Source of the DNA: Amphritea japonica ATCC BAA-1530
Lineage (GTDB): Bacteria; Pseudomonadota; Gammaproteobacteria; Pseudomonadales; Balneatricaceae
Direction: 5' to 3'
NCBI RefSeq assembly: GCF_016592435.1
Contig: NZ_AP014545.1
Span: 3,170,693 to 3,234,692, forward strand
Length of the DNA: 64,000 nucleotides
Of this stretch, positions 21,151-44,108 are shown piece after piece. Position 1 is the first letter of the stretch. Every line of letters starts with the position of its first letter. Below the pieces are notes generated by a model, which saw nothing but the letters and a program-made list of their open reading frames with translations, was not told the DNA's origin and did not search any database. The translations under genes and the position numbers were made by a program.

Positions 21151-21330
21151 AGAGCGGAAAGCTTCGCTTTCCTTGCAAGACGTGGCTAGTGGCTAGTGGC
21201 TAGTGGCTAGTGGCTAGAAAAAGCGTATCACAATCATCACCTTACCAGACGAGTTCTTTTAAAGCTCTTGATCTTTCTGGCCACTAGCAGGCGCGCCGCT
21301 CTAGCGAGCGACGCAGTTGCGTCTAGCTAC
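21151..21330. repeat. GCTAG-hairpin composite repeat, copy 1
   Basis: The left arm holds a GGAAAGC-TTC-GCTTTCC hairpin and five perfect TGGCTAG heptamers (21183-21217). An A-rich start AAAAAGCG opens a roughly 60-base core. The right arm begins TTTCTGGCCACTAGC and contains a GACGCA-GT-TGCGTC hairpin before TCTAGCTACTA. GGCTAGAAA and TTTCTGGCC can pair across the core. The right edge overlaps the ung stop codon (TAG, 21330-21332). Confidence 0.85.
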
Positions 21331-22013
21331 TAACCTATCTCAGGAAGCTGCCAATCAACTGGGCTACGTCCATTAGCCGAAAGATAAGCATTCGCCTGAC
21401 TAAAGTGCTGACAGCCAAAGAAGCCCCGATAAGCAGCCAGGGGAGAGGGATGCGCAGACTCAAGAATAAGGTGTCGTTGAAGATCTATCTTTGCGCCTTT
21501 CTTCTGGGCATAACTACCCCAGAGCATAAAAACAACATTCTCACATTGCTCATTTACGGTCGCTATAATCCGATCAGTGAACTGCTCCCAGCCTTTCTTT
21601 TGGTGCGAGCCAGCTTTAGAGTTTTCTACCGTCAACACAGCATTGAGCAGTAAGACGCCCTGCTGCGCCCAGTTTTCAAGACAACCATGGGAGGCCCGGG
21701 GAATCCCCATATCTGTTTCCAGCTCTTTGTAGATATTTACCAGCGAAGGGGGTGTTTTGATGCCTGGGCGCACAGAAAAACTCAATCCATGGGCCTGATC
21801 AGGCTGATGGTAAGGGTCCTGACCGATAATGACCACCCGGACTTGCTCCAGAGGGGTCGCTTCAAGGGCGTGAAACCAATGCTTAGCATCGGGATAGATT
21901 ACTTTTCCCGCTAGCTGCTCCTGTTGCAAAAACGCTTGTAGCGTCTGCATATAGGGCGCATCGAACTCAGGGGCCAGCCAGGATTGCCAGCCAGGGGCAT
22001 TTTCCAGCACCAT
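21330..22013 (-). CDS. ung: Uracil-DNA glycosylase, family 1
   Basis: 227 residues. Removes uracil from DNA. The catalytic water-activating motif [17 protein letters not shown] (about 64-80) and [13 protein letters not shown] are conserved, along with the [11 protein letters not shown] strand. The length is typical. Its TAG stop is formed in the edge of the GCTAG repeat, the last codons being Glu-Ile-Gly-stop. Confidence 0.97.
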
Positions 22014-22044
22014 TCGTGCTTCCTTATACTATCAATTGTTTATA

Positions 22045-22494
22045 TTAATTATCGCCACAGTCTCTGATCTTAGGCTCACTCATCCCCATCCACACTTCCC
22101 GGGTGAACGTCTTGCCATAGATAACTGAGTAATAACGAATTTTACCCGGCGCATGAGAAATGATGCCGGAGATCAGAATAACCAGAATATAGATCCAGGC
22201 CTGAGGCTGAGCAAACCAATAAATCCCGGCCGCCAGTAGTAATAATTTGAACAACACCAACTGACCCCGCAACTGGTAGAGCCAGATAGTATCAACATAG
22301 AGCTCTTTGGCCACCATTAATACACCACTGCCCACGCCCACAATCAGGTAGGGAAACCATACCGATTGCGGCTGGTTAAACAGATAGGCTCCAGCCAGCC
22401 CGGCAATACCCACCAGATGCAAAGAGCGCAAGGCAATACTGATCCAGCGTTTTCCGGGTAGATGTCGCTTTTGCTGCGGTATTAACCAACTCAT
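22045..22494 (-). CDS. Small multi-pass membrane protein, unknown function
   Basis: 149 residues from the ATG at 22494, which has AGGA about 8 bases upstream. An earlier in-frame GTG at 22524 lies inside the lysS terminator hairpin and is unlikely. Four hydrophobic helices are visible (about 20-38, 46-64, 78-96, 98-116), followed by a polar tail ending CGDN. I do not recognise a family. It lies just after lysS on the same strand. Confidence 0.8.
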   Translation of the reverse strand: MSWLIPQQKRHLPGKRWISIALRSLHLVGIAGLAGAYLFNQPQSVWFPYLIVGVGSGVLMVAKELYVDTIWLYQLRGQLVLFKLLLLAAGIYWFAQPQAWIYILVILISGIISHAPGKIRYYSVIYGKTFTREVWMGMSEPKIRDCGDN

Positions 22495-22511
22495 AAAGGC
22501 TTTCCTAAAGA

Positions 22512-22540
22512 CAAAAAGGGCCACCCGAAGGCAGCCCTTA
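22512..22540 (-). terminator. Rho-independent terminator after lysS
   Basis: On the minus strand GGGCTGCC pairs with GGTGGCCC around a TTCG tetraloop, followed by T5. Located about 30 bases past the lysS stop. Confidence 0.88.
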
Positions 22541-22569
22541 TAGATTAACCTGTTCTCTTCAACGGTGCA

Positions 22570-42563: not shown

Positions 42564-42623
42564 ACATATCTCCAACACTTAAACGGCATCTTAAAAACAT
42601 TCATATGAAGCGGTATGAATAAT

Positions 42624-42681
42624 ATTCCAAAGAATACGCTTTGCATTCCAAGGAATCAAACTAATATATATTCCATGGAAT
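42624..42681. promoter_or_regulatory. Three ATTCCA-type palindromes, predicted MarR-family operators
   Basis: ATTCCAAAGAAT (42624-42635), ATTCCAAGGAAT (42645-42656) and ATTCCATGGAAT (42670-42681) lie between divergent genes, 21 and 25 bases apart centre to centre. The last two are perfect or near-perfect 12-base palindromes. Repeated AATCAAACT / AGTTTGATT flanks extend the second and third into a larger inverted repeat. Confidence 0.8.
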
Positions 42682-42686
42682 GCAGT

Positions 42687-42716
42687 TTGATTTCTAACTG
42701 ATACTAGCAATATTTA
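42687..42716 (+). promoter_or_regulatory. Probable promoter of the nitroreductase-like gene
   Basis: TTGATT (-35) and TATTTA (-10) with an 18-base spacer, about 30 bases upstream of the ATG. The -35 begins five bases after the third palindrome, so regulator binding would block it. Confidence 0.5.
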
Positions 42717-42747
42717 TTACTTATACGTTTATGTAAGGATCAATCAA

Positions 42748-43911
42748 ATGAACCGTCGAAACTTTATTAAAATTACCGGCCTGGGTATCGGAACGGCCGC
42801 CTTAGGCAGCACTGTTGTAGGGTGCAGTGACGTCACCCCTACCGATAATTTTGGCTGGAACGGGCCCGATCCAGCAGAGCAGGATATCCGCATGAAGGTA
42901 CTGGCCTATGCCATCCTCTGCCCTAACCCCCACAATAAACAGCCCTGGATTATTAACTTAACAGGCTCGCATAGCTTCGATCTTTATGTAGACCCCGAAC
43001 GCTTGCTGCCCGCCACCGATCCGTTTTACCGGCAGATACATATCGGTCAGGGGACATTTCTGGAAACCCTGGCCATTGCCGCCAGCGGACTTGGCCATGA
43101 AGCCAGTATTGATTACTTTCCACAGGGTATGTACAGCAATACAGAGCTACTCGATAAACCCGTTGCCTCTATCGAACTGATTGAACGGCCGGGGATCACT
43201 CCCGACCCTCTATTTGCTCAGTTGCTCATCCGACACTCTAATAAGCGGGAGTATGACAACCGTAGCCTGAGCCAAACAGAAACCGAGACATTACAAAGTT
43301 TTCACGGTAAGAATAATAATCACGCCCTGAGCATCGTCAGCTCTGCCGAAGCCAAGCAGCATTTCGAGCAGATACTCACCGATGCGATGCAGATCGAGGT
43401 GGGTGATAAAGGCCGTGATCATGAGACTATTGCGATGTTTCGCTTCAATGAGGATGAGGTGAAACAACATCGCGACGGGTTCAGCGTGGCGCAGGCCGGA
43501 TTGAGCGGGCTTAAGAAGGTCTTCGTCGAGAACTTTATACTCTCACGGGAGAGTACCGAAAAAGATCCTACCTCATTCGGTGAACAAGCCGTGACGATGA
43601 CCCAGAAAGCAGCTGAATCAACTGCCACTTTTGCCTGGATTACTACCACAGGCAACTCTCGACTAGATCAGGTAATCGTTGGTCGCGAGTACTGTCGCAT
43701 CAACCTGAAAACCACCGCAATGGGGCTTGCGCAGCATCCAATGAGCCAGGTCTTGCAGGAATACCCTGAAATGCTGCCACTACAAGCCAGGTTCAAAGAA
43801 ACCTTTGGTATAGATAAAGGCGATACAGTACAAATGTTATTCCGTTTGGGGCGAGCTGAAGCAACACCCCACGGACCAAGACGGCTGGTCACTCAGATAA
43901 TAAACAGCTAG
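42748..43911 (+). CDS. Tat-exported lipoprotein, Acg-type nitroreductase-like
   Basis: 387 residues. The N-terminus MNRRNFIKITGLGIG is a twin-arginine signal, and STVVGC (Cys26) forms a lipobox, so a Tat lipoprotein is predicted. The main body has NPHNKQPWII near 62-71 and a late GLAQHPMSQ, matching the Acg/nitroreductase-like FMN-binding fold. Enzyme substrate is unknown. It has an AAGGA site, and its TAG stop lies in a GCTAGAC motif of a repeat. Regulation by the divergent MarR protein is likely. Confidence 0.83.
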   Translation: MNRRNFIKITGLGIGTAALGSTVVGCSDVTPTDNFGWNGPDPAEQDIRMKVLAYAILCPNPHNKQPWIINLTGSHSFDLYVDPERLLPATDPFYRQIHIGQGTFLETLAIAASGLGHEASIDYFPQGMYSNTELLDKPVASIELIERPGITPDPLFAQLLIRHSNKREYDNRSLSQTETETLQSFHGKNNNHALSIVSSAEAKQHFEQILTDAMQIEVGDKGRDHETIAMFRFNEDEVKQHRDGFSVAQAGLSGLKKVFVENFILSRESTEKDPTSFGEQAVTMTQKAAESTATFAWITTTGNSRLDQVIVGREYCRINLKTTAMGLAQHPMSQVLQEYPEMLPLQARFKETFGIDKGDTVQMLFRLGRAEATPHGPRRLVTQIINS

Positions 43912-44108
43912 ACCGCCGAACAAGTTCGGCTAGCTAGTGGCTCGAAAAAGCAAAGGGACTGACCGGCCCTCGCTCTTTCGAGCTACGGCCGCACTCCCAT
44001 CGGCACGGGGACGTACCTCCTACATAACCTTCTCAAGCTTTTGATTTTCGAGCAACTAGCAAGTCACGCAGTGACATCTAGCTACTCTCGCGTTCTTTGC
44101 GAGCCTCT
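43908..44108. repeat. GCTAG-hairpin composite repeat, copy 10
   Basis: Left: GCTAGAC, CCGAAC-AAG-TTCGG, CTAGCTAGTGGCTCGAAAAAGC. Core about 90 bases, with GGGAC and GAGCTACG pieces. Right: TTTTCGAGCAACTAGC, GTCAC-GCA-GTGAC, TCTAGCTACT and an outer CTCGC-GTTCTTT-GCGAG unit. CTCGAAAA and TTTTCGAG can pair, a CTCGA version of the core closing stem. The stop of the preceding gene is in its left edge. Confidence 0.82.

Follow-up and report, generated by a model that had tools for sequence, protein, structure and literature searches.

A dispersed family of hairpin and heptad repeats in Amphritea and its link to IVP genes

The genome of Amphritea japonica ATCC BAA-1530 harbours a family of dispersed, palindromic and mostly intergenic repeats which is nearly restricted to the genus Amphritea. 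These repeats are probably proliferated, IVP-less derivatives of an element in which inverted 7-bp arrays flank an IVP (PF05635) gene. Such a gene lies among the repeats in the window, the 64-kb stretch of DNA analysed here, and IVP genes in other bacteria are in most cases framed by heptads as well.

The repeat family and its anatomy

A preliminary description of the window had reported a repeat family between core genes, and this family is real. The segments lie where they had been placed and exceed chance: the pattern GCTAGTNGCTAGAAAAA, with up to 2 mismatches, matched 39 times in the A. japonica genome (some of these being chance matches), against 5 times for the reversed pattern. R1, a model of one hairpin unit, gave at least 116 matches at E ≤ 10 in the same genome, 71 of them at E < 1e-3; these E-values are rough, and 27 of the units on which R1 was trained are among the 116. 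The number is a lower bound because only 150 of 1049 candidates were scored. The matches group into approximately 80 clusters, and 14 of the 116 are located inside the window. The search of this genome and its relatives that the preliminary description had proposed thus extended the family well beyond the window loci. Among 57 genomes, 14 contained R1 matches, all of them belonging to Amphritea (14 of 17 members), and at E ≤ 0.1 R1 matched in none of the 40 genomes from other genera. No Rfam family matched in the window at the gathering score (n = 0). The preliminary description of the family as an unrecognised one holds.

The GCTAGT linker between the hairpins is a 7-bp tandem repeat in which CTAG words recur with a period of 7. 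CTAG and GCTAGT motifs had been described as joining the hairpins and are indeed present, but the period had been missed, as had the variant words CTCG, TTAG, CCAG and TTCG found beside CTAG. A tandem 7-bp period, as in STRR-type heptanucleotide repeats, is evident from two CTAG-like words 7 nt apart in 87 of 116 arms, compared to 514 of 4000 random 76-nt stretches. In Amphritea, short hairpins are interleaved with these heptads, and the two arms of one element point inwards.

The common architecture proposed earlier, a left arm, a core and an inverted right arm, was recognised by eye in copies 1, 2, 4, 5, 8 and 9/10, whereas in copies 3, 6 and 7 the right arm is missing; the core sequence varies from copy to copy. 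All left arms are on the plus strand and all right arms on the minus strand. Copy 1 has its left arm at 21152..21219, where a hairpin precedes five GCTAG words spaced 7 nt apart (21185-21217), and its right arm at 21280..21331 (R1 match 21291-21331). In copy 2 the left arm (31300..31357, R1 match 31302-31340) is paired with a right arm carrying an outer CTCGC-N7-GCGAG unit (31420..31498, R1 match 31413-31453). Copies 4 and 5 are close neighbours, with left arms at 36432..36492 (R1 match 36460-36500) and 36615..36672 (36632-36672) and right arms at 36538..36604 (36564-36604) and 36711..36768 (36730-36768), respectively. The left arm of copy 8 (41768..41825, R1 match 41787-41827) precedes a terminator-like hairpin (41832-41863) and right arms of several units (41963..42113, R1 matches 41963-42004 and 42002-42042). 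Copy 9/10 consists of a left arm with CTCG at its end (43908..43944, a pattern match with 1 mismatch, by eye) and a right arm with CGAG at its start and an outer CTCGC-type unit (44049..44108, R1 match 44046-44086). Terminator-like hairpins occur in several cores, and they also follow the single left arms of copy 6 (39707..39765, R1 match 39726-39766, hairpin 39769-39801) and copy 7 (40277..40343, with CTCG/TTCG words, R1 match 40298-40339, hairpin 40350-40382). The left arms of copies 6, 7 and 8 are of repeat family D2.

In alignment A1 of the hairpin units 97.7% of the cells were paired and 3 of 5 pairs had changes on both sides, a covariation that is biased because the 27 rows were picked for pairing from 41 distinct units. 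When parts of copies 2, 4 and 5 were folded as single-stranded DNA, the z-scores ranged from -0.98 to -3.26, a signal which is suggestive for copy 2 only. The compiled hairpin listing contains chance hairpins too.

IVP genes and the repeats

According to the preliminary description no obvious mobiliser was present in the window. A candidate partner is, however, found between copies 3 and 4: a gene of 113 aa on the minus strand (35995..36336) matching PF05635 (Pfam E 9.5e-34) and PDB 2gsc (E 6.2e-16), the solved structure of the IVP XCC0516 from X. campestris. It encodes an IVP, which we take to be a small four-helix protein. The gene is intergenic and not within 23S rRNA. Only one of its sides has a clear arm, the adjoining left arm of copy 3 (35920..35985, plus strand, R1 match 35941-35981), and complete IVP-less copies are on the other. 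At the same site, holC-valS, several Amphritea species have the IVP gene between inverted arms of the same kind. The IVP alleles at this fixed site have been replaced, and IVP is under purifying selection, with dN/dS of 0.02-0.08 in unsaturated pairs with changes.

R1 matches were detected in 10 of the 14 IVP loci of Amphritea. Most family copies are without an IVP gene; the arms are common to the dispersed family and the IVP locus, and IVP is a putative mobiliser only. The gene was present in all 10 repeat-rich Amphritea genomes compared to 1 of 7 repeat-poor ones. In a valS tree of 16 genomes the repeat-poor members fall into two distinct groups. Some deviations are apparent. Genome G015 carries IVP but yielded only 3 R1 matches. 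The IVP-less genomes G007 and G011 have kept 4 and 2 matches, respectively, plus CTCG-type arms after valS, and R1 may undercount in these two because it is poor at detecting CTCG-type arms. Between IVP arms and genome-wide copies a strict agreement of the heptad word was not found, the agreement being loose only; in G012 the word is CTAG at IVP, but 12 of 20 pattern matches have CTCG/TTCG as their second word.

Outside Amphritea, 85 IVP loci were sampled, mostly from Pseudomonadota with some from Cyanobacteria, the loci sharing ancestry. The best repeat period was 7 in 62 of 85 loci (18/28, 23/29, 6/8 and 15/20 by batch) against 7 of 57 distal-flank controls. Another period was best in the remaining 23 of 85, and a locus from Gemmatimonadota failed. 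Flanks of Y1_Tnp genes were dropped as a control for the period because all periods scored approximately 11 there. The two flanks of an IVP gene were similar to each other when inverted in 69 of 84 loci and when direct in 15 of 84, with shuffled flanks as the control for inverted similarity. A different-locus control, under which only 1 of 28 loci was above the 95% level, was dropped because oppositely oriented homologous neighbours appear to yield inverted matches. The arms are polar, the 5' arm having G>C in 28 of 34 and the 3' arm C>G in 37 of 43, and most of them are without interleaved hairpins. IVP-less heptad palindromes or arrays are also present in some of the other IVP genomes. At IVP locus L401 of genome G459 the heptad is GGGAATC, a word also reported for Xanthomonas. 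By eye, the IVP loci L221, L236 and L393 look rRNA-embedded.

Alternative origins of the repeats

The family had been likened to REP/BIME or MITE families, which is apt as a description, and a RAYT (Y1_Tnp) partner elsewhere in the genome had been suggested. An origin as a RAYT-mobilised REP/REPIN family, with CTAG replacing GTAG, would agree with hairpins that are dispersed and mostly downstream of genes and with the RAYT-like genes present in this genome; in the available text of one study a TnpA-REP cleaves a CTAG substrate at a reduced but detectable level (PMC8266576). We nevertheless regard this origin as very improbable, since the repeats do not behave as RAYT-linked, GTAG-tagged REPs. 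The RAYT-like gene at 985668 has, as judged by eye, its own cluster of TGTAGGAG-type repeats around it, and R1 matched in 2 of 26 Y1_Tnp loci (stretches of approximately 3 kb), about the expectation from match density in this genome, with none immediately flanking the gene. Genome G008 has 21 R1 matches but no Y1 match, and across Amphritea RAYT genes display no link with repeat-richness of the kind seen for IVP. The tag word, CTAG, CTCG or TTAG, is moreover inside the heptad and is not GTAG. Plain replication slippage, with heptads as favoured microsatellites, has been proposed for heptamer excess (in the available text of PMC4692102) and would fit the variable copy numbers. It can hardly be the explanation, since slippage does not place the same word in inverted arrays beyond a gene, the arrangement favoured in the inverted over direct flank counts above, and the period-7 background is only 5 runs in 1.2 Mb (six genomes sampled at 200 kb each). 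The runs numbered 4 in G519, 1 in G010, and 0 in G107 and G384 (both with IVP) and in G071 and G003 (both without); the sample provides a background rate only because it is too sparse for comparing genomes with and without IVP.

That the repeats are selected 3'-UTR or terminator structures, their link to IVP being incidental, is unlikely, if less so than the two origins above. Convergent gaps hold 37 of 80 clusters against a background of 42 of 166, most arms lie in sense orientation relative to their upstream neighbour (40/48 and 31/46), a terminator-like hairpin follows several arms, and stem changes preserve pairing, in rows pre-selected for pairing. Against it stand the occurrence of none to several copies at one syntenic gap, tandem amplification, the near absence of the repeat from three related species, a heptad palindrome within the rmlB gene of G107, and the link between heptads and IVP in other bacteria.

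Known elements and a possible mechanism

Heptanucleotide repeats have been found in cyanobacteria, Xanthomonas, Nostoc and Beggiatoaceae, and we know of no agreed origin for them; the STRR were reportedly described around 1990. Nor do we know of an established function for IVP proteins. Avd, on which diversity-generating retroelements depend, is a relative of IVP. MITEs resemble the Amphritea family in being short, with inverted termini, high copy number and possibly a full-length relative in the genome, but the Amphritea termini are heptad arrays, and the candidate partner does not belong to the known transposases. REP/BIME with GTAG or CGTC tags, as far as the available text describes them, share the short hairpins, inverted pairs and location mostly 3' of genes (PMC3733652), whereas the Amphritea repeat is without the GTAG tag, has a 7-nt linker period and has no RAYT association found. 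STRR and other bacterial heptamers are likewise tandem 7-bp words, intergenic and in part inverted, and their function or mechanism is reported as unknown; the available texts name no partner gene (PMC2670836, PMC4692102, PMC4679880), and the hairpins between heptads distinguish the Amphritea repeats. A parallel with a protein of the same family is the 23S rRNA IVS with S23p/IVP, e.g. in Coxiella burnetii, which in the available text is termed selfish and has inverted termini forming a stem and tandem heptamers before the ORF (PMC4990558). The Amphritea copies differ in being intergenic, in their composite hairpin-heptad arms and in being dispersed mostly without a protein gene. The open-access literature, covered mostly at the level of listings and abstracts, yielded no paper joining IVP with dispersed heptad repeats.

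The spread of an IVP element may be depicted as follows. The full form would have inverted 7-bp repeat arrays on either side of the IVP gene, and gene-less arms derived from it would fill the clusters of the A. japonica genome, mostly downstream of genes. Inverted arms could fold the transcript into a cuttable stem, as the rRNA IVS is cut by RNase III. IVP, we infer, would bind the RNA or DNA of the arms and would be both needed for the spread and its driver, promoting copying to new sites, mostly intergenic, through a chemistry that is putative. Slippage of heptads would alter copy number and word.

More tentatively, and with somewhat less than even confidence, IVP genes and inverted heptad arrays may constitute one widespread class of mobile elements in at least three phyla (Pseudomonadota, Cyanobacteriota and Bacteroidota), with full forms carrying IVP and short forms lacking it. 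The bacterial heptanucleotide repeats, such as cyanobacterial STRR and probably the heptamers of Xanthomonas and Beggiatoaceae, would be short forms, and IVP would act as an Avd-like nucleic-acid chaperone for spread rather than as a conventional transposase. Two long-unexplained oddities of bacterial genomes, IVP genes and heptad repeats, may thereby be linked, and with IVP genes framed by inverted heptads in most loci and IVP-less copies in several IVP genomes both problems become testable together. We conclude that the IVP element is a more general form of the rRNA IVS and provides a candidate origin for heptanucleotide repeats such as STRR. If true, it would represent a new class of small element without a known transposase, tied through IVP to the Avd of diversity-generating retroelements.

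Repeat units and their distribution in Amphritea

The preliminary description had placed ten GCTAG-hairpin elements in the window (positions 3170693-3234692 of the 3,833,046-base single-contig genome), and repeats were found at those places. Read towards the core, the unit consists of GCTAGAC, a stem of about 5 bp, a triloop, the second stem strand and TTGCTAGTNGCTAGA, and the core-facing end is A-rich in most arms. The triloops are mostly TNC, which is GNA on the opposite strand; a list of 43 that still includes chance hairpins contained TTC (n = 17), TGC (n = 12), TAC (n = 5) and TCC (n = 1). 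GNA loops are unusually stable in single-stranded DNA, and the triloops of the arms at window 21151-44108 hint at folding at the DNA level.

CTAG is scarce in the window, with 73 occurrences including the repeat copies versus 247 expected from base composition. Copy 1 carries GCTAG five times at 7-nt spacing, and two CTAG-like words 7 nt apart were present in 87 of the 116 arms found by R1, a model of one hairpin unit, versus 514 of 4000 random stretches. The words of this heptad linker vary (CTAG, TTAG, CTCG, TTCG, CCAG), and in copy 9/10 the CTCG of the left arm is mirrored as CGAG in the right arm. One terminator-like hairpin of the GCCCGGCAGTGATGCCGGGC type (repeat family D2) occurs in four copies at window 39769-39801, 40350-40382, 41180-41211 and 41832-41863.

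The R1 search of the whole genome gave at least 116 matches in 80 clusters. The repeats almost certainly constitute a genuine family. Both orientations were present in 14 clusters, and in 13 of these all plus arms precede the minus arms; the remaining one (window 35941-36768, order ++-+-) consists of two adjacent facing pairs. The 80 clusters lie in 37 convergent, 32 co-directional and 11 divergent contexts. The corresponding background counts, taken over all gaps of 60 nt or more from these blocks, were 42, 89 and 35, with element gaps still included, genes taken as simple ORF calls and rRNA neighbours unrecognised. The left arm and core are tandemly repeated ahead of the right arm in three genomes (own genome 1004637-1005112, the RDD-lptG gap of G010, and G016).

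R1 matched 14 of 17 Amphritea genomes and none of the 40 genomes outside the genus, counts which are lower bounds from 114 scored candidates. Scanning the species collection with the linker pattern yielded 69 stretches, 27 of them titled Amphritea. Among 11 non-Amphritea stretches inspected, two look by eye like genuine elements (R1 20-22 bits), both on one Neptuniibacter MAG contig. The syntenic RDD-lptG gap, judged by eye, varies in content. In six genomes (G001, G002, G003, G007, G011, G013) it has nothing more than a spacer or a terminator-like hairpin, and in G008 the words are degenerate. The own genome, G012 and G016 each have one element there, G006 and G009 have two, and G010 has several.

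The preliminary description had proposed looking for a RAYT-type transposase elsewhere in the genome. A separate REP cluster of the TGTAGGAG type at about 985.5-986.6 kb (L032 1370-2400) surrounds a RAYT-like gene. Repeats of this type also occur in the window near 40410 and, in G010 and G016, within some of the heptad elements.

The IVP gene within Amphritea

A gene for the PF05635 four-helix protein (IVP) separates copies 3 and 4. PF05635 was found in 11 of 17 Amphritea genomes: in all ten repeat-rich ones (G000, G004, G005, G006, G008, G009, G010, G012, G014, G016; at least 21-110 R1 matches each) and in one (G015) of the seven repeat-poor ones (0-4 matches). In a valS phylogeny covering 16 genomes, the repeat-poor members fall into two groups: G001/G002/G003/G013, and G007/G011/G015, which is nested among repeat-rich species. 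R1 matches flank IVP at 10 of 14 Amphritea IVP loci; the loci of G004, G005 and G014 have other arm words (CTCG, CTGG), and G006, G010 and G015 have a second IVP locus with TCCGA-type words.

Among IVP pairs whose dS was unsaturated and which differed by one or more amino acids, dN/dS was 0.02-0.08, indicating purifying selection. Between G009 and G016 the IVP dS was 0.041 versus 0.37-1.11 at five neighbouring genes; between G012 and G004, which have different arm words at the site, it was saturated, yet the valS dS was 0.18. These sequence comparisons show that IVP alleles turn over at a fixed site. Next to its intact IVP gene, G004 also harbours a second copy, which is partial and has CTCG arms of its own (L181, L208).

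Heptad arrays in other bacteria

PF05635 was detected in 43 of 293 genomes of the order sample, 62 of 398 of the phylum sample and 8 of 21 plasmid records. Flanks were tested for tandem periods at the loci of the best-scoring matches. In the order set (28 of 29 loci, L229 being excluded where a contig end cuts it) the mean best score was 13.4 for period 7, 11.7 for period 14 and 4.5-5.8 for the others, the 99% value of shuffles being 9.0; in the phylum set the scores were 20.0, 16.4 and 4.3-5.7. Period 7 was best at 18/28 order loci (distal flanks 2/28), 23/29 phylum loci (distal flanks 5/29), 6/8 plasmid loci with period 14 set aside, and 15/20 loci of a set collected once the hypothesis had been framed, or 62/85 when pooled; these counts are non-independent trials because loci share ancestry. 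By eye, the metK-ahcY gap recurs in the order set, and genus g227 recurs in the phylum set. The plasmid-set failures were Stanieria and Gemmatirosa, the sole Gemmatimonadota locus. The background sample yielded 5 period-7 runs scoring at least 12 per 1.2 Mb.

The two flanks resembled each other in inverted orientation at 58/64 loci of the first three sets (excluding one phylum locus whose flank was short) and directly at 12/64; the later set gave 11/20 and 3/20, and inversion is thus weaker there. On the IVP sense strand, G exceeded C in 28/34 5′ arms and C exceeded G in 37/43 3′ arms with a clear period. Heptad-like flanks also occur at IVP genes judged by eye to be embedded in rRNA (L221, L236, L393). 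Exceptions are L250, with period 8, and L392, where the arrays adjoining the gene are direct, not inverted.

The IVP gene carried by Anabaena sp. 90 and Pseudanabaena galeata plasmids (L389, L392) is adjoined by long heptad arrays and lies between cas6 and cas4 annotations; a 2023 CRISPR survey names IVP in a figure legend on adaptation modules (PMC10910872). In the order sample and a class-level set, IVP genes repeatedly adjoin sulfur/SAM genes (metK-ahcY, cysC, cysD/cysN by eye; L209-L237, L395, L397).

Arrays lacking IVP were found in other IVP genomes, and their words vary from genome to genome. GTAGNNAGTAGNNAGTAG had 2-48 matches in 8/8 sampled g227 genomes (control 0), overlapping matches within one array being tallied separately, and none in three genomes from two other genera of the family. 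GTGAGGNGTGAGGNG had 45 matches in G519 (control 9), 26 in G107 (control 0) and none in 5 of the 11 genomes queried. G519 has facing plus and minus arrays at six places, about 30-60 nt apart with no gene-sized gap. In G107 one facing array lies in frame inside rmlB, whose ORF is 19 residues longer than 1bxk at that loop; heptad arrays lie within the rmlB and rmlD frames on both sides of the IVP gene (L295 2838-3968, 4359-5318).

Relation of the repeats to the IVP element

The Coxiella rRNA intervening sequence, termed selfish, has tandem heptamers preceding its S23p ORF and inverted repeats cleaved by RNase III in vitro, and its authors hold that RNA counts for more than protein there (PMC4990558). 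PF05635 is described as similar to Avd of diversity-generating retroelements (PMC10053308). Cyanobacterial STRRs are usually 7-bp repeats, reported as of unknown function (PMC2670836). No mechanism is given for the heptamers of Xanthomonas and Nostoc, reported as generally lacking mobile-element association (PMC4692102), or for those of Beggiatoaceae, Cyanobacteria and Bacteroidetes, where a repeat-binding protein was suggested as the possible mobile part (PMC4679880). An open-access literature search, mostly of titles and abstracts, found no paper joining IVP with dispersed heptads.

Two conclusions are well supported: the repeats share design and locus with an IVP element, and inverted heptad arms are frequent at IVP genes. 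The co-occurrence of gene and repeats, the purifying selection and allele turnover seen at IVP, and its relationship to Avd suggest that IVP may cause the spread of the repeats, a reading held with caution because word agreement is loose, G015 has the gene among repeat-poor genomes and the background sample is sparse. Confidence in the two readings that follow is tempered slightly by the failure of one phylum claimed for the link and by the weaker inversion in the later set. The family probably represents proliferated IVP-less derivatives of the IVP element. More tentatively, IVP genes with inverted heptad arrays could constitute one widespread class of mobile element, of which bacterial heptamers would be the short forms.
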